A program made the position numbers and the translations under genes. Below, piece by piece: positions 56,286 through 64,000 of a DNA stretch of 64,000 nucleotides (its first letter is position 1; each line of letters opens with the position of its first letter). The notes beneath the pieces are model-generated. The model saw only the letters and a list, made by a program, of their open reading frames with translations. It made no database searches and was not told the origin of the DNA. The stretch lies in contig JAIPJC010000002.1 in the NCBI GenBank assembly GCA_021734345.1, forward strand, positions 1-64,000, read 5' to 3'. The DNA comes from Kiritimatiellales bacterium. Its GTDB lineage: Bacteria > Verrucomicrobiota > Kiritimatiellia > Kiritimatiellales > Pontiellaceae.

Positions 56286-57587
56286 ATGTTTTGGAAGAAC
56301 GAGTGGAAAAAGTTGGCGGTGATCGTGGCGGTGTTTCTGGGCTGCTTCTATCTACCGGTGGGTCATGCGCGGTTCGACAACGCCGTGCTGGAAGCCTTTC
56401 ATCTGGTGAAGTGGTATGCCCGCGAACATGTGCTGCTCTGCCTGATCCCCGCCTTTTTCATTGCGGGCGCGATTGCGGTGTTTGTCAGCCAGGCTTCGGT
56501 GATGAAATATCTCGGGGCGAAGGCGAAGAAGGTGGTGGCCTACGGCGTTGCGGCGGTTTCGGGCACCATTCTGGCGGTCTGCTCCTGCACGGTGCTGCCG
56601 CTGTTTGCCGGTATCTATCGCATGGGGGCCGGTCTCGGTCCCGCGACGGCGTTCCTCTACTCCGGCCCGGCGATCAACGTGCTGGCCATTGCGCTCACCG
56701 CCCGCGTTCTGGGAATTCAACTAGGCGTAGCGCGTGCCGTTGGTGCCATGGCGTTCAGCATCATCATCGGTCTGCTAATGCATTTTATTTTCCGCAAGGA
56801 GGAGCAGGAAAAGGCCGCCGCGCAAATGGCCATGCCGGACGAGGAGGTCAAGCGTCCGCTCTGGCAGAACGGCCTCTATTTCTTTTCGATGGTTGCCATC
56901 CTGGTCTTCGCCAACTGGGGCAAACCGGATGTAGCCGCCGGACTTTGGGCGGCTGTTTATTCGACGAAATGGATCGTCACCTCCGTCTTTGCCGTCGCGC
57001 TGGGCGTGATGCTGGTGCTCTGGTTCGGCATCAAATGGTGGAAGGTGGCGCTGACCGCGCTGCCGACGGCGGCTCTCGCCGTCGCCTTTCCAGAACAGCC
57101 GATGGTCGCCTTCGCGGCGGCGGTGGTCGGACTTTCGGCCTTTACGAGCACCGACAAGGGCGAAGCGGGCGAATGGTTTTCCTCGTCGTGGGGCTTTGCC
57201 AAGCAGATCCTGCCGCTGCTGCTGATCGGCGTACTGGTGGCCGGGGCGCTGCTCGGGCGCGTCGGCCATGAAGGGCTGATCCCGTCGGAATGGGTGGGAA
57301 CCGCGGTCGGCGGCAACTCGCTGCGCGCCAACTTCATCGCCTCGTTCGCCGGCGCGTTCATGTATTTCGCGACGCTCACCGAAGTGCCGATTCTGCAAGG
57401 TCTGATCGGCAACGGCATGGGTCAGGGCCCCGCGCTCGCGCTGCTGCTGGCCGGCCCGGCGCTCAGCCTGCCGAACATGCTCGTCATCCGCAGTGTGCTC
57501 GGCACCAAAAAGACCGTGGTTTTCGTTTCGCTCGTGATCGTCATGGCCACGTTCAGCGGCATGGTTTTCGGCGTATTCTTTCATTGA
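56286..57587 (+). CDS. Permease of the ArsP/PF03773 type
   Basis: VSGTILAVCSCTVLPLFAGIYRMGAGLGPATAFLYSGPAINVLAI; multiple TM segments. Confidence 0.88.
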   Translation: MFWKNEWKKLAVIVAVFLGCFYLPVGHARFDNAVLEAFHLVKWYAREHVLLCLIPAFFIAGAIAVFVSQASVMKYLGAKAKKVVAYGVAAVSGTILAVCSCTVLPLFAGIYRMGAGLGPATAFLYSGPAINVLAIALTARVLGIQLGVARAVGAMAFSIIIGLLMHFIFRKEEQEKAAAQMAMPDEEVKRPLWQNGLYFFSMVAILVFANWGKPDVAAGLWAAVYSTKWIVTSVFAVALGVMLVLWFGIKWWKVALTALPTAALAVAFPEQPMVAFAAAVVGLSAFTSTDKGEAGEWFSSSWGFAKQILPLLLIGVLVAGALLGRVGHEGLIPSEWVGTAVGGNSLRANFIASFAGAFMYFATLTEVPILQGLIGNGMGQGPALALLLAGPALSLPNMLVIRSVLGTKKTVVFVSLVIVMATFSGMVFGVFFH

Positions 57588-57623: not shown

Positions 57624-58397
57624 ATGAAGACATTCGATAGCATCGGATTCGTCGGCGGAGGTCGGGCAACGCGGTTCCTGCTCGAAGGCTGGAAGGCCGC
57701 CGGACCATTGTCCGGAAACATCCATGTGGCGGATTGCAATGCGCAGGTGCTCGATGCGCTCGCGGCCGATTTCCAGGGTATTGCCCGCGCAACCACCGCG
57801 CAGGCGTCCGGCTGCGAACTCGTCGTACTGGCGGTGCATCCGCCCGTGATGAAGGCGGCCATGGAAACCGTCAGATCCCACCTCGGACGTGCGGCGGTGG
57901 TGCTTTCGCTCGCCCCGAAGTTCACGGCGGCGGCCATCGCCGCCGCGCTGGGCACGGAGCGCATCGTGCGCATGATTCCCAACGCGCCTTCCTCGATTGG
58001 AAAAGGCTTCAATCCCGTTGCCTACGCCGCCGGCGTGGGCGCGGATGCAAAGACGGCACTGCGTGGACTCTTCGCCCCTTGGGGCGACGCGCCCGAGGTG
58101 CCTGAAGCCGATCTCGAAGCCTACGCCATCCTTTCCGCCATGGGGCCGACCTACCTGTGGTTCCAGTGGCAGGCGCTGCGCGAACTTGCGGCGGATTTCG
58201 GGCTCGGCGCGGCCGATGCCGACCGTGCGATCCTGCACATGGTCAATGGCTCCGCCGAATGCCTGCTGGCCGCCGGTCGCGATCCCGGCAAGGTGATGGA
58301 CATGGTACCGGTCAAGCCGCTCAAGGACGACGAGGCGGTGATTGTGGAAGCCTACCGCACCAAACTCACCGGACTTTACGCAAAAATAAAACCCTAA
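57624..58397 (+). CDS. Pyrroline-5-carboxylate reductase-like NAD(P)-binding protein
   Basis: IGFVGGGRATRFLLEGW Rossmann; ELVVLAVHPPVMKAAM; IVRMIPNAPSSIGKG. Confidence 0.78.
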   Translation: MKTFDSIGFVGGGRATRFLLEGWKAAGPLSGNIHVADCNAQVLDALAADFQGIARATTAQASGCELVVLAVHPPVMKAAMETVRSHLGRAAVVLSLAPKFTAAAIAAALGTERIVRMIPNAPSSIGKGFNPVAYAAGVGADAKTALRGLFAPWGDAPEVPEADLEAYAILSAMGPTYLWFQWQALRELAADFGLGAADADRAILHMVNGSAECLLAAGRDPGKVMDMVPVKPLKDDEAVIVEAYRTKLTGLYAKIKP

Positions 58398-58416: not shown

Positions 58417-58647
58417 ATGAAGATACAGATTCTGGGCACGGGGTGCCCGAAGTGCAAACAGCTCATGCAGCACGCCGAAGAGGCGGTCAAGGCTGCCGGA
58501 ATCGACGCAAGGATCGAAAAGGTCGAGCAGATCAACGAGATCATGAAGTTCGGGGTGATGATGACGCCCGCGCTGGTGATCGACGGCGAAGTCAAGTCGG
58601 TTGGCAAGGTGCTTTCGCCCGAAGCGATCCGGGGGATGCTGCAATGA
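58417..58647 (+). CDS. Small thioredoxin-like (redox-active disulfide) protein
   Basis: MKIQILGTGCPKCKQLMQHAEEAVKAAG; GVMMTPALVIDGEV. Confidence 0.93.
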   Translation: MKIQILGTGCPKCKQLMQHAEEAVKAAGIDARIEKVEQINEIMKFGVMMTPALVIDGEVKSVGKVLSPEAIRGMLQ

Positions 58648-59144
58648 AGCTGTGGCAGAAACTGCTGGCGGTCGCCGTGCTGGTTGGCGCGGTGGTTTTC
58701 GTGGTCGAGGTCAAGAACAAGAAGGGCGATTCCTGCTGCGCCGGCGGCGTCTGCACGCTGCCGCCTTCCGCCACCTCCGCCGCCGCGGAACCTGCCGGAT
58801 TGGTGGTCGCGGCCCGGCCGATGCCGAAGCTGGTCGATCTGGGCGCGGGCAAGTGCGTTCCGTGCAAGATGATGAAGCCGACGCTCGAGGATCTCAAGGC
58901 CAACTATGCCGACCGCTTCGAGACGGTCTTCATCGATGTCTGGGAAAACGAGGGAGCGGGGGAGCAGTACGGCATCCGCGTCATCCCGACCCAGATCTTC
59001 TACGACACCGATGGGAAGGAACTCTTCCGCCACGAAGGGTTTTTCTCCAAAGAGGACATCCTCGCCAAGTGGGAAGAACTTGGATACGGCTTCGCCGAAC
59101 CGCAGAATGACGAACAAGAAATTTCGAATATCGAAGGTGACTGA
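58644..59144 (+). CDS. Membrane-anchored thioredoxin-family protein
   Basis: N-terminal TM, CCAGGVC, GAGKCVPCKMMKPTLEDL, IRVIPTQIFYDTDGKELFRHEG. Confidence 0.9.
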   Translation: MKLWQKLLAVAVLVGAVVFVVEVKNKKGDSCCAGGVCTLPPSATSAAAEPAGLVVAARPMPKLVDLGAGKCVPCKMMKPTLEDLKANYADRFETVFIDVWENEGAGEQYGIRVIPTQIFYDTDGKELFRHEGFFSKEDILAKWEELGYGFAEPQNDEQEISNIEGD

Positions 59145-59146
59145 AA

Positions 59147-59845
59147 ATGGAAGAGTTGTTCACCAGTCTGACCCGCGCCGTTGAGGGTGCGCCGCTGATC
59201 GCACTGAGCGCGGCCTTCATCTGGGGCGTTCTGAGCATCGTGCTCAGTCCCTGCCACTTGGCCAGCATTCCGCTGATCGTCGGCTTCATCGACGAGCAGG
59301 GGCGCATCTCCACCAGACGCGCCTTCTTTATCGCGCTACTCTTTTCGCTCGGCATCCTCGCCACCATTGCGCTGGTCGGTATCGTCACCGCGCTGGCGGG
59401 GCGGATGATGGGCGACGTGGGCCGGTACGGGAACTATGTGATCGCGCTGATCTTCTTCGCCATCGGCCTGCATTTGCTTGGCGTCATTCCCATGCCCGGT
59501 AGCGGGCCGGGCCAGGTGAGGATGAAGAAGCGCGGGCCGCTGGCGGCATTCATCCTTGGCCTGGTGTTCGGCATCGCGCTCGGACCGTGCACCTTCGCCT
59601 ACATGGCGCCGATGCTCGCCATCGTCTTCAAGGCCGGCGCGGAGCGGTCAGTCTATGCGGGCAGCCTCCTGCTGCTCTACGGCGTTGGCCACTGCGCCGT
59701 CATCGTGCTCGCCGGTACCTTCACCGAAGTCGTCCAGCGCTACCTGAACTGGAACGAAAAATCGAAGGGCGCGCTGGTGCTCAAAAAAGTCTGCGGCCTT
59801 CTCGTCCTGCTCGGCGGGCTCTACATGGTCTACACGGCTCCGTGA
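59147..59845 (+). CDS. CcdA/DsbD-like (ArsG-type) transmembrane protein
   Basis: LSIVLSPCHLASIPLIVGFI, LGLVFGIALGPCTFAYMAPML; about six TM segments. Confidence 0.85.
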   Translation: MEELFTSLTRAVEGAPLIALSAAFIWGVLSIVLSPCHLASIPLIVGFIDEQGRISTRRAFFIALLFSLGILATIALVGIVTALAGRMMGDVGRYGNYVIALIFFAIGLHLLGVIPMPGSGPGQVRMKKRGPLAAFILGLVFGIALGPCTFAYMAPMLAIVFKAGAERSVYAGSLLLLYGVGHCAVIVLAGTFTEVVQRYLNWNEKSKGALVLKKVCGLLVLLGGLYMVYTAP

Positions 59846-59933: not shown

Positions 59934-60293
59934 ATGAAACCAACCGTGGATGTCCTGAAAGCCCTCGCCGACCGCAACCGCCTGCGGGTGGTGGCCGCCC
60001 TCATGCGGCAAGAGGAGTTGTGTGCCTGCCAGTTGGTCGAGCTGCTGCGGGTGACCGGCGCGACGGCGTCGCGCCACATGGAGCTGCTGATCCGCGCCGG
60101 GCTGGTCAATGGCCGGAAAGAGGGGCGCTGGGTCTACTACCGTCTCGAAGCGGATTTCCCGGAACTGCTTTTCCAGTGGTTGGAGGGAGCCCTCCGGGCC
60201 GAGGCGGAGATCAAGGACGATGGGCGGAAGTTGGACAAGATCGTGGCTTGCCTGCCGCAGGAGCTGTGCCGCAAGCAGCGCACTAAACAATAG
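59934..60293 (+). CDS. arsR: ArsR-family transcriptional regulator
   Basis: LKALADRNRLRVVAALMRQEELCACQLVELLRVTGATASRHMELLIRAGLVNGRKEGRWVYYRL. Confidence 0.93.
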   Translation: MKPTVDVLKALADRNRLRVVAALMRQEELCACQLVELLRVTGATASRHMELLIRAGLVNGRKEGRWVYYRLEADFPELLFQWLEGALRAEAEIKDDGRKLDKIVACLPQELCRKQRTKQ

Positions 60294-60303
60294 GAAAAAC
60301 AAC

Positions 60304-60747
60304 ATGGATGAGAAACTGAAGATACTGTTCCTGTGCACCGGCAACTCATGCCGCAGCCAGATGGCCGAAGGTTGGACGCGCGCGCTGAAGGGCGATGTGG
60401 TCGAAGCCTATTCGGCGGGGATCGAAACCCACGGCCTCAACCCCAATGCCGTCAAGGTGATGGCCGAGGCGGGCGTGGACATTTCCGGCCACAAGTCCGA
60501 GAACGTCGCGGATCTGCTCCATATTCCGTTCGACTATGTCGTGACGGTATGCGGCCACGCCAACGAGCATTGCCCGTTCTTTCCCGGCAAGGCCAAAATC
60601 GTCCACGTCGGCTTCGACGATCCGCCGAAACTCGCCCGCGAACTGGCGGCTCGGGGAAAGTCCGAAGATGAGCAGCTCGACTGCTACCGTAAAGTCCGCG
60701 ATGAGATCAGGGCGTTTGTCGAAACACTGCCGGGCAGTCTGGTTTGA
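60304..60747 (+). CDS. arsC: Arsenate reductase, LMW-PTPase/thioredoxin-coupled type
   Basis: ILFLCTGNSCRSQMAEGWTRAL; YVVTVCGHANEHCPFFPG. Confidence 0.93.
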   Translation: MDEKLKILFLCTGNSCRSQMAEGWTRALKGDVVEAYSAGIETHGLNPNAVKVMAEAGVDISGHKSENVADLLHIPFDYVVTVCGHANEHCPFFPGKAKIVHVGFDDPPKLARELAARGKSEDEQLDCYRKVRDEIRAFVETLPGSLV

Positions 60748-60791: not shown

Positions 60792-61745
60792 ATGAGGAAT
60801 GAAATCAAAGTATTTGACCCGCCAATGTGCTGTTCGAGCGGAGTGTGCGGAACCAGCGTCGATACGGAGCTGGTACGGTTTGCCGGCGATCTGGAGTTTC
60901 TAAAGAAGAACGGCGTTGCCGTGCGGCGGTACAACCTCTCTTCCGAACCGGCGGCATTTGTCGCGGAAACCATCGTGAAGGAAACGCTGGCGAAAGACGG
61001 AAACGACTGTCTTCCGCTGGTGATGGTGAACGGAAAAATCGTCGGCAAAGGAAGCTACCCGGCGCGGGCGGAACTGCTGAAACAGGTCGGCCTGGAAGCC
61101 CCTTCCGCGGAACCGGCTCAACCGGCGTTTTCAGATTGCGGACCGGGCTGTGACTGCAACGGCGCTCCTGCCGGGGCAAAAAAACTCAAGAAGCTGGTCG
61201 GCTCGGCGGTGCTGGTTGCCGCGCTCTGTATTCTTGGGGTTAAACTTGCGCGGGCACAATCGGAGAAGCAACCCGATGCCTCGGCGGCGACCCCGCCGCC
61301 GGCCTTTGCGGTTGCAGCGCTATCTGCGCCCGAACCGGCACCGGTGGTTGCGGAGGCGAACAAGGAATTTCAAAAGCTGAATGCACTGAGCGAATTGAAC
61401 ACGGTGGCCATCCAGCAGGATGCCGTGCTGGTCTTTGTTCCAAACGCTGGAAACGATGCCATGGCACCCGCCACCGAATCGGCCATGCAGGCCGCGCAAA
61501 AGACGCTTAAACGCAGTGAGCTGGAGCTCGGATTATACACGCTGGATCGTGTGGCGGCCGACTATCCAATGATTTCCGCCCAAACCGCCACCCCGGCGAT
61601 TCTGGTTATGGCCAAAGGACGCGGAATGTCGGTGGTTCCGGCGGATGCGGCCGAATCGAAAATCCTGCAGGCGTTCATGTCTGCTTCGAGCGCCGGAGGC
61701 TGCGGGTCGGGCGGGTGCGGGCCATCGGCGGCAGGATGCAACTAG
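60792..61745 (+). CDS. ArsD-TM-thioredoxin-like fusion protein with Cys/Gly-rich tail
   Basis: IKVFDPPMCCSSGVCGTSVDTELVRFAGDLEFLKKNGVAVRRYNLSSEPAAF (ArsD); VGSAVLVAALCILGVKLARA TM; C-terminal VFVPNAGN...TPAILVMAKGR; tail GGCGSGGCGPSAAGCN. Confidence 0.88.
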   Translation: MRNEIKVFDPPMCCSSGVCGTSVDTELVRFAGDLEFLKKNGVAVRRYNLSSEPAAFVAETIVKETLAKDGNDCLPLVMVNGKIVGKGSYPARAELLKQVGLEAPSAEPAQPAFSDCGPGCDCNGAPAGAKKLKKLVGSAVLVAALCILGVKLARAQSEKQPDASAATPPPAFAVAALSAPEPAPVVAEANKEFQKLNALSELNTVAIQQDAVLVFVPNAGNDAMAPATESAMQAAQKTLKRSELELGLYTLDRVAADYPMISAQTATPAILVMAKGRGMSVVPADAAESKILQAFMSASSAGGCGSGGCGPSAAGCN

Positions 61746-61761: not shown

Positions 61762-62457
61762 ATGCTCGAATCGATAACCAACTCGCTTCAAAACGTTGCG
61801 GACCATCCGCTGGGGCTGCTGTTCGCGCTGCTGCTCGGCGTGGTCAGCGCGGCCACCAGCGCCTGCTGCACCCTGCCCGCGCTGGGTGTACTGGTCGGCT
61901 ATTCCGGTTCGCAGCAAAGCGGCACTAAAAAAACCGCGATTCAAACGGTATTGATTTTCACGCTGGGCATTGTTTTGTCGTTGATGTTTATCGGCGCGAT
62001 CGCCGGGTTTGTTGGCCAGACGGCGCAGTTTGCGCTGGGCAAATACTGGAAGCTGTTTGCGGGCATGGCCGCCATTTTTCTCGGCCTCGCTTCAACCAAC
62101 CTGCTGCCCTTCAAGCTCTCCTTTGGCACCTTTGCCGGCGTGCGCGAAAAAGCGGGCCGCTACGGGGTTCTGGTTTCCGGTCTGCTGCTGGGCGGCATTG
62201 TCGCCGCCAGTTCGCTGCCGTGCAATCCGGGTATCTTTATCGTCATCGGCGCATCGATTCTTCAAGGGAAAATTGTTTGGGCGATTTGCATGCTGGCGAT
62301 GTTTGCCATCGGCTTCAGCCTGCCGCTCGGCGCGGTTCTGCTGGGCATTTCCCTCACAAAAGTCAGCTTTGCCGCCAAGGGATTTGATACGGCGGTTCGC
62401 TGGATCGCCGGCACGGTGCTGATTCTTGCGGGATTCTATATTTTGCTTGGATTTTAA
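61762..62457 (+). CDS. CcdA-like transmembrane protein, second copy in island
   Basis: GVVSAATSACCTLPALGVLVGYSG; ASSLPCNPGIFIVIGASIL; about six TM segments. Confidence 0.82.
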   Translation: MLESITNSLQNVADHPLGLLFALLLGVVSAATSACCTLPALGVLVGYSGSQQSGTKKTAIQTVLIFTLGIVLSLMFIGAIAGFVGQTAQFALGKYWKLFAGMAAIFLGLASTNLLPFKLSFGTFAGVREKAGRYGVLVSGLLLGGIVAASSLPCNPGIFIVIGASILQGKIVWAICMLAMFAIGFSLPLGAVLLGISLTKVSFAAKGFDTAVRWIAGTVLILAGFYILLGF

Positions 62458-62479: not shown

Positions 62480-64000
62480 ATGAAGAAGCTTATTGAGGAA
62501 GCGCCCAGATTTCTGTTTTTCACCGGAAAAGGCGGCGTCGGTAAAACCTCGATGGCCTGCACAACGGCGGTCGGCCTGGCCGACCGGGGCAAAAAGGTTC
62601 TGCTGATCAGCACCGATCCCGCCTCCAATCTGGACGAGGTGCTCGAAACGCCGCTCGCTTCAACACCTGTTCCGGTCAACGGAGTCGAGGGGCTCTTTGC
62701 CATGAATATCAATCCGATCCAGGCGGCGGCGGAATACCGCGAGCGCATGGTCGGCCCATACCGAGGCGTACTGCCCGATGCCTCGATCCAGCAGATGGAA
62801 GAACAGCTCTCCGGTGCCTGCACGGTCGAAATCGCCGGCTTCAACGAATTCTCGAAATTCGTCGGCGATGAACAGACCGGCGCGGGCTACGACCATATCG
62901 TGCTCGACACCGCGCCGACCGGCCACACGTTGCGCCTGCTCAATCTGCCCGCCGCCTGGAGCGATTTTATCGCCGACAACAAAACCGGCAGCTCCTGCCT
63001 CGGCCCGCTGGCCGGGCTGGCCGAACAGCACAAGCTGTTTGAAAAAGTCATCGCATCGCTGAAGAACCCCGAAAAAACCCGGCTGGTCCTGGTCGCCCGC
63101 GCCGATGCCATGAGCCTCAAGGAAGCTGCCCGCGCCGCCGCCGAACTCGGTGCGCAGGGCATGAACAATCAATGCCTGATCGTCAACGGACTCTTTCTCA
63201 ACGACTCGGACGATCCCGTCGCCAAGGCCTTCGGTGCGCAAACCCGGATGATGCTCGAACAGATTCCGGCGGCCTTGAAAAAGCTGCCAATTTACCGGGT
63301 GCCGTTCCGCGCCGCCGGAATCATGGGACTGGCCGCCCTGCGCAGCGTCAGCCGCGACGAACCCGAAGCCGCCCCGGAATCAACGCCCGCCAGCCTGTCG
63401 TTGGATTTCCCTGCTTTGCAGGAGTGGGATCGATTTCTCGACGGACTCGCCGCAGCGGGCAAAGGCGTAATCCTGACGCTCGGCAAAGGCGGAGTCGGCA
63501 AAACCACCATGGCCGCGCTGATCGCATCCGAGCTGGCGCAACGCGGACATTCCGTTCTGCTCTCCACCACCGATCCGGCGGCGCACATTGCCGACGCATT
63601 GGGAAAGGCACATCAAAACATCGAGGTCGCCCGCATCGATCCCAAAGCCGAAACCACGCGCTATGTCGAAAACGTGCTGGCCAAAAACCGGGATATCCTA
63701 TCGCCCGAAAACATGGAGCTTCTCGAAGAGGAAATGCGCTCTCCCTGCATCGAAGAGATTGCCGTCTTCCAGGCGTTTGCCGAAACCGTGGCGCGCGGCA
63801 CGGAGCAGTTCATTGTCCTCGACACCGCGCCGACCGGCCACACCCTGCTGCTGCTCGACTCCACGCAGGCCTACCACAAGGAAGTCTCCCGCTCATCGGA
63901 AGATCTGCCCGAAGCCGTCAAGGAACTGCTGCCGCGCATCCGCGACCCGCATTTCACCCGCATGTTGATTGTTACGCTCCCCGAAGCCACTCCCGTGCAT
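62480..64000 (+). CDS. arsA: Arsenite-transporting ATPase ArsA (3' truncated by window edge)
   Basis: FLFFTGKGGVGKTSMACTTAVGLADRGKKVLLISTDPASNLDEV and second P-loop LTLGKGGVGKTTMAALIASEL; LDTAPTGHTLRLL; open to base 64000, absent from ORF track. Confidence 0.95.
   Translation, partial: MKKLIEEAPRFLFFTGKGGVGKTSMACTTAVGLADRGKKVLLISTDPASNLDEVLETPLASTPVPVNGVEGLFAMNINPIQAAAEYRERMVGPYRGVLPDASIQQMEEQLSGACTVEIAGFNEFSKFVGDEQTGAGYDHIVLDTAPTGHTLRLLNLPAAWSDFIADNKTGSSCLGPLAGLAEQHKLFEKVIASLKNPEKTRLVLVARADAMSLKEAARAAAELGAQGMNNQCLIVNGLFLNDSDDPVAKAFGAQTRMMLEQIPAALKKLPIYRVPFRAAGIMGLAALRSVSRDEPEAAPESTPASLSLDFPALQEWDRFLDGLAAAGKGVILTLGKGGVGKTTMAALIASELAQRGHSVLLSTTDPAAHIADALGKAHQNIEVARIDPKAETTRYVENVLAKNRDILSPENMELLEEEMRSPCIEEIAVFQAFAETVARGTEQFIVLDTAPTGHTLLLLDSTQAYHKEVSRSSEDLPEAVKELLPRIRDPHFTRMLIVTLPEATPVH

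Follow-up and report, generated by a model that had tools for sequence, protein, structure and literature searches.

The window, which is the whole 64,000-nucleotide stretch of DNA that we analysed, contains an arsenic-resistance (ars) cluster in the order ArsR, ArsP-like permease, pyrroline-5-carboxylate-reductase-like gene, ArsE-family protein, membrane thioredoxin, CcdA1, and a second ArsR. After the second ArsR come ArsC, a gene joining ArsD to a C-terminal half of an unnamed family (Cdom), CcdA2, and ArsA; past the window end, ArsA is followed on the contig (L031) by ACR3 and another ArsC. The features of the neighbourhood are listed below.

56286 to 57587, forward strand: ArsP-like permease (PF03773, 1.4e-73).
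58417 to 58647, forward strand: MTH895/ArsE-family thioredoxin-like protein (TIGR00412, over the cut-off).
58644 to 59144, forward strand: membrane-anchored thioredoxin with a CVPC active site (Pfam thioredoxin, 1.9e-12).
59147 to 59845, forward strand: CcdA1, DsbD_TM family (PF02683, 1.9e-12).
59934 to 60293, forward strand: ArsR-type regulator (NF033788, over the cut-off).
60304 to 60747, forward strand: ArsC, arsenate reductase of the LMW-PTP type (TIGR02691, 8.7e-44, below the curated cut-off; Pfam LMWPc).
61762 to 62457, forward strand: CcdA2, six-TM CcdA/DsbD-like protein with CC35-36 and C154 (pairing with Cdom, Pfam matches in relatives, cysteines in 30/30).
62480 to 64000, forward strand: ArsA ATPase, continuing past the window end (TIGR04291, over the cut-off).

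The sequence-only reading had placed two CcdA-like proteins and thioredoxins around the fusion, and both pairs were found: CcdA1 with CcdA2, and the ArsE-family protein with the CVPC thioredoxin. The pyrroline-5-carboxylate-reductase-like gene (57624-58397 in the window) lies near the membrane thioredoxin and CcdA1, and was also seen in ars clusters at L032 949-1839 and L045 2-508.

The fusion gene (60792-61745, forward strand) is one intact ORF of 317 aa, running from the ATG at 60792 to the stop at 61745 without an internal stop, and a Shine-Dalgarno-like AAAGGAG lies shortly 5' of the ATG. The order in the protein is ArsD, CGPGCDC, one TM helix, a flexible stretch, a thioredoxin fold, and a three-Cys tail, the sequence after the fold being GGCGSGGCGPSAAGCN.

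60792 to 61100, forward strand: ArsD domain, residues 1-103, As(III)-binding Cys 13/14/19 (PF06953 1e-39, NF033727, PDB 3mwh/3ktb/3kgk).
61137 to 61157, forward strand: CGPGCDC trithiol motif, residues 116-122 (CGxxCxC kept across Cdom relatives).
61194 to 61250, forward strand: single TM helix, residues 135-153 (Kyte-Doolittle 2.34; AF2 helix).
61371 to 61691, forward strand: thioredoxin-fold domain, residues ~194-300 (AF2, Foldseek, conservation).
61698 to 61742, forward strand: Cys tail GCGSGGCGPSAAGCN, Cys 304/309/316 (conservation among 37 aligned members).

Thus the four parts earlier read from the letters (ArsD, TM segment, thioredoxin-like region, and Cys tail) are all present in one ORF, and the joining of ArsD to a TM anchor there agrees with the predicted membrane tethering of ArsD.

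The fusion was searched in 289 genomes of the phylum, and the full-length form was found in two congeners, G160 and G248, at 52-53% identity over the full length; the C-terminal half alone matched many more of these genomes. A Cdom profile (alignment A1) was then run on the window's class (346 genomes) and on another class (198 genomes). From these searches, 37 Cdom genes were collected, mostly stand-alone, and two more ArsD-Cdom fusions were found in G610, which belongs to another class. A scan of genome contigs with the whole fusion as the query returned mostly ArsD matches and one Cdom record, and a search of plasmids found no Cdom.

These relatives bear on the reading of the fusion as an artefact of gene calling or assembly. 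The window's assembly is fragmented (176 contigs), which would favour an artefact; however, the same fusion recurs in four further genes, spread over three genomes, and a Met searched for in the ArsD-TM linker was not found, so there is no start codon there. In addition, both halves are under purifying selection: between G160 and G248, the dN/dS of ArsD is 0.11 and that of the thioredoxin domain with its tail 0.16, whereas the linker value of 0.80 comes from very few changes. The artefact reading was therefore rejected as having a negligible probability, and the frameshift or assembly error raised as a danger by the sequence-only reading was not borne out.

The ArsD half is well defined. It matches Pfam ArsD (PF06953) over residues 3-122 (1e-39) and NCBIfam ArsD (NF033727) with 117.9 bits against a cut-off of 90. 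The only convincing sequence matches in the PDB were three ArsD crystal structures (3mwh, 3ktb, and 3kgk; 1.6e-24 to 1.4e-22). C13, C14, and C19 align with the As(III) site of 3mwh, and all three cysteines are kept. In ArsD, Cys12, Cys13, and Cys18 form the As(III) site, which is used for transfer to ArsA (PMC12607644). The window protein resembles this metallochaperone in the whole domain, the CC...C As(III) site, and an ArsA gene in the same operon, here two genes downstream, but it adds a TM anchor and, after it, a domain that is probably extracytoplasmic. Known ArsD proteins are soluble and have about 110-120 aa; with the fusion, this chaperone would gain a membrane-spanning version.

No Pfam or NCBIfam family describing Cdom was found. 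The AF2 model of the thioredoxin domain has a pLDDT of about 90 and the order beta-alpha-beta-alpha-beta-alpha-beta-beta-alpha, and a Foldseek search with it returned thioredoxins and PDI domains (best E 3.6e-4, target TM about 0.6). The absence of a thioredoxin-like fold, which would have undone the first description, was thus not observed, and the residue at the cis-Pro position, Pro268, never varies among 37 aligned members. However, the thioredoxin likeness holds for the fold and not for the active site: a CXXC was found in the fold of 0/37 members, and VPNAGNDAM occupies the loop position in the window protein. The conserved cysteines flank the fold. Nearly all 37 relatives carry two sets of three Cys, one ahead of the TM and one in the tail, with the fold between nearly Cys-free; the first two tail Cys occur in 37/37 aligned members and the third in 35/37, and the last one stands at or adjoining the second-to-last position.

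Possible relationships of Cdom to other proteins were tried and rejected. The identity with ArsF failed, with no match to NF040494 or other NCBIfam models and an hhalign probability of 0.1%, and a relationship with the neighbouring thioredoxin had no profile support. Weak profile matches with only the CGCGC stretch and the TM (Sel1-like repeat proteins and TM thioredoxins) were attributed to composition and discounted. The Sel1-like repeat proteins (L098, L100-L103) have a CGCGCG start and a TM helix, and resemble Cdom in the N-terminal anchor only.

We infer that ArsD and the CGxxCxC motif are cytoplasmic and that the thioredoxin fold and tail are periplasmic. This C-out topology is supported by the basic residues before the TM helix (KKLKK on its N-terminal side) and by a lipoprotein form of Cdom in G289 (L115 9121-9903, reverse strand). 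In the latter, the domain and its Cys tail come after a lipobox-like GLFSGC, which suggests that the domain lies outside the cytoplasm. Neither CcdA2 nor ars genes were seen near this lipoprotein-like Cdom in L115.

Cdom is genetically coupled to CcdA2, which is the next gene after 33/37 Cdom genes, a count that includes one case with a small ORF call between and one with a split CcdA2; nearly all of these pairs lie in ars clusters. C35, C36, and C154 of CcdA2 are kept in 30/30 sequences, with Cys in both halves of the protein and the CC pair in TM1; CcdA1 and ArsG also have Cys at the two sites, but only one per site. Among 15 aligned CcdA2 members, nine match Pfam DsbD_2 (best 4.9e-11) and seven match DsbD_TM (best 3.6e-13). 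The window CcdA2 itself has no Pfam DsbD match, but it is 45-75% identical to the aligned members. In profile comparisons, CcdA2 aligns with both CcdA1 and ArsG (profile-profile E to ArsG of about 1e-8 to 1e-10), although the window protein did not match NCBIfam ArsG (NF040495). No match to the NCBIfam or Pfam Mer families was found for CcdA2, the CC motif in TM1 being all that it shares with MerT. With a pLDDT of 50, its AF2 model was too poor to place CC and C154 relative to each other. Together, Cdom and CcdA2 make up a two-gene module, apparently undescribed so far, that turns up repeatedly in ars and mercury-methylation clusters within one bacterial phylum.

Fused and unfused genes from the order are mixed together in the ArsD tree, and G610 falls in another part of it. 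A single clade of fusions was weakly rejected by the ArsD tree (p-AU 0.042) and not by the Cdom tree (p-AU 0.30). Two or more separate fusion events are likely. An ArsC-Cdom fusion of 381 aa was also found once, in G052 (L038 7490-8635), with CcdA2 next. Judging from these gene arrangements, ArsD would be only one of several cargo domains joined to Cdom, ArsC being another and HgcB possibly a third.

Three-thiol coordination is preferred by As(III), and four trithiol sets are present: in ArsD, before the TM of Cdom, in the Cdom tail, and in CcdA2. A thiol hand-off path was inferred from this match. The fusion product may be a membrane-anchored metallochaperone relay passing As(III) or another thiophilic metal by thiol hand-off, a tentative reading to which we give somewhat less than an even chance. 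ArsD would collect As(III) on Cys13/14/19, and the tether would hold it at the membrane beside ArsA/ACR3 and CcdA2. Thiol exchange would then hand the As(III) on to CGxxCxC, next to the CC...C site of CcdA2, and finally to the periplasmic tail, the thioredoxin fold providing a docking platform rather than redox catalysis. The cargo could instead be Hg(II), Sb(III), or a methylated arsenical. The ArsD fusions in two classes, the ArsC fusion, and the profile match of CcdA2 to ArsG were counted for this relay; ArsG has been called an organoarsenical efflux transporter (PMC9144182). The kept ArsD cysteines, the pairing of Cdom with CcdA2, the signs of C-out topology, and the purifying selection on both halves were likewise taken in its favour. 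Against it, ACR3 and ArsP already supply export in the same clusters, which would leave one more exporter superfluous unless it handles another substrate. Electron transfer is also the classical role of the CcdA family, and the Cys-rich tails could be redox-active too.

A rival reading is an electron relay, in which CcdA2 would move electrons across the membrane from a cytoplasmic thioredoxin to the Cdom Cys tail, and the tail would reduce a periplasmic target or keep thiols reduced under arsenic stress. The matches of CcdA2 relatives to CcdA/DsbD families and the thioredoxins encoded upstream of the fusion agree with it, and the accessible text of PMC2963123 proposes a redox system for the CcdA, thioredoxin, and redox-disulfide proteins of ars operons. 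The ArsC-Cdom fusion fits as well, since ArsC depends on thioredoxin; however, ArsC is cytoplasmic, and the joining to a metallochaperone would be unexpected for an electron path. Moreover, the kept Cys sets are threes, not pairs. We consider the electron relay rather improbable but worth weighing; the trithiol hand-off is favoured over it because of the missing CXXC (0/37), the three-Cys sets, and the MerT-like CC plus C154 of CcdA2. A relay of As(III) or reducing power across the membrane had been suggested at the outset; the As(III) version is compatible with the anatomy, while the reducing-power version is less supported, given a fold with no CXXC in any of the 37 members.

A simple tether was also considered, whereby Cdom only anchors ArsD (or ArsC) near ArsA/ACR3, its Cys clusters buffer metalloid, and CcdA2 has an unrelated job. 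The adjoining ArsA and ACR3 genes and the use of several cargo domains would fit, but Cdom is mostly stand-alone and nearly always paired with CcdA2 (33/37), and the tail, being probably outside the cytoplasm, cannot serve ArsA there; a pure tether is accordingly quite unlikely. Returning to the trithiol hand-off, the Cdom-CcdA2 module probably has a part in carrying thiol-binding poisons to the membrane or through it, as far as the genes and their cysteines indicate. The relay would be a concrete candidate for As(III) membrane hand-off beyond ArsA/ArsB/ACR3.

We compared the module with known systems. Like ArsE-ArsF-ArsG, it has a thioredoxin-fold protein with an N-terminal TM followed by a CcdA-like permease; unlike ArsF, Cdom has Cys tails and lacks both CXXC and profile similarity (hhalign 0.1%), and unlike ArsG, CcdA2 has an extra vicinal Cys and no NCBIfam ArsG match. 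An ArsE-Cys-rich stretch-TM-ArsF fusion, parallel to ArsD-Cdom, was observed in G083/G561 (L096 1171-2025, L097). Shared with MerP/MerT uptake are two adjacent Cys in TM1, a thiol partner that may be extracytoplasmic, and the logic of thiol hand-off, whereas CcdA2 is a six-TM CcdA-family relative and Cdom a thioredoxin fold. MerT and MerE depend on a Cys pair in TM1 for Hg(II) transport (PMC5715351), a precedent counted for the trithiol hand-off. As in CcdA/DsbD with a TlpA/CcmG-type partner, a CcdA-family membrane protein adjoins a membrane-anchored thioredoxin-fold protein, but Cdom has no CXXC and CcdA2 has CC in TM1 instead of a single Cys. The combination of CcdA with thioredoxins also occurs in ars operons that encode redox-disulfide protein 2, and neither an ArsD fusion nor a Cys-tailed domain is described in the accessible text of PMC2963123.

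The Cdom-CcdA2 pair lies close to hgcAB in about nine relatives. HgcA beside the pair scored 409 bits (cut-off 275) and HgcB 112.8 (cut-off 99). We observed hgcA-hgcB within a few genes of Cdom-CcdA2, inside ars clusters, in L037, L040, L043, L036, L045, L109, L114, L117, and L123, the order in L043 being ArsR-HgcA-HgcB-Cdom-CcdA2-P-type ATPase-ArsC-ACR3. Within the window's class, HgcA was over the cut-off in 26 genomes, Cdom was found in 25, and both in 10, against 1.9 expected (Fisher p 1.5e-6, a value that ignores the relatedness of the genomes). In G163 and G574, which are of different classes, the HgcB frame continues into Cdom with no stop codon between them (L037 8348-9712, reverse strand; L123 1548-3176, forward strand). 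A Shine-Dalgarno-like sequence and an ATG precede Cdom inside these frames; therefore, HgcB-Cdom may be a fusion or two products. According to the accessible text of PMC7438021, hgcAB can adjoin ars genes, and that text makes no mention of the Cdom-CcdA2 pair.

In the window genome, which is about 85% complete, no HgcA match was found. Mercury methylation does not therefore explain the window gene and is a clue to the module only. Cdom-CcdA2 could be an undescribed translocation module for thiophilic metal(loid)s with swappable cytoplasmic cargo (ArsD, ArsC, or HgcB), common to arsenic-resistance and mercury-methylation clusters, and might couple HgcAB to Hg(II) or methylmercury movement; this wider reading is speculative and, on balance, unlikely. 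The analysis defines an unnamed two-gene module that also occurs beside hgcAB, and a module handling both mercury and arsenic would be a mechanistic link between the two systems. As a separate observation, ArsA and ArsC form a single ORF of ~750 aa in two genomes (L036 4379-6625, reverse strand; L109 12021-14273).
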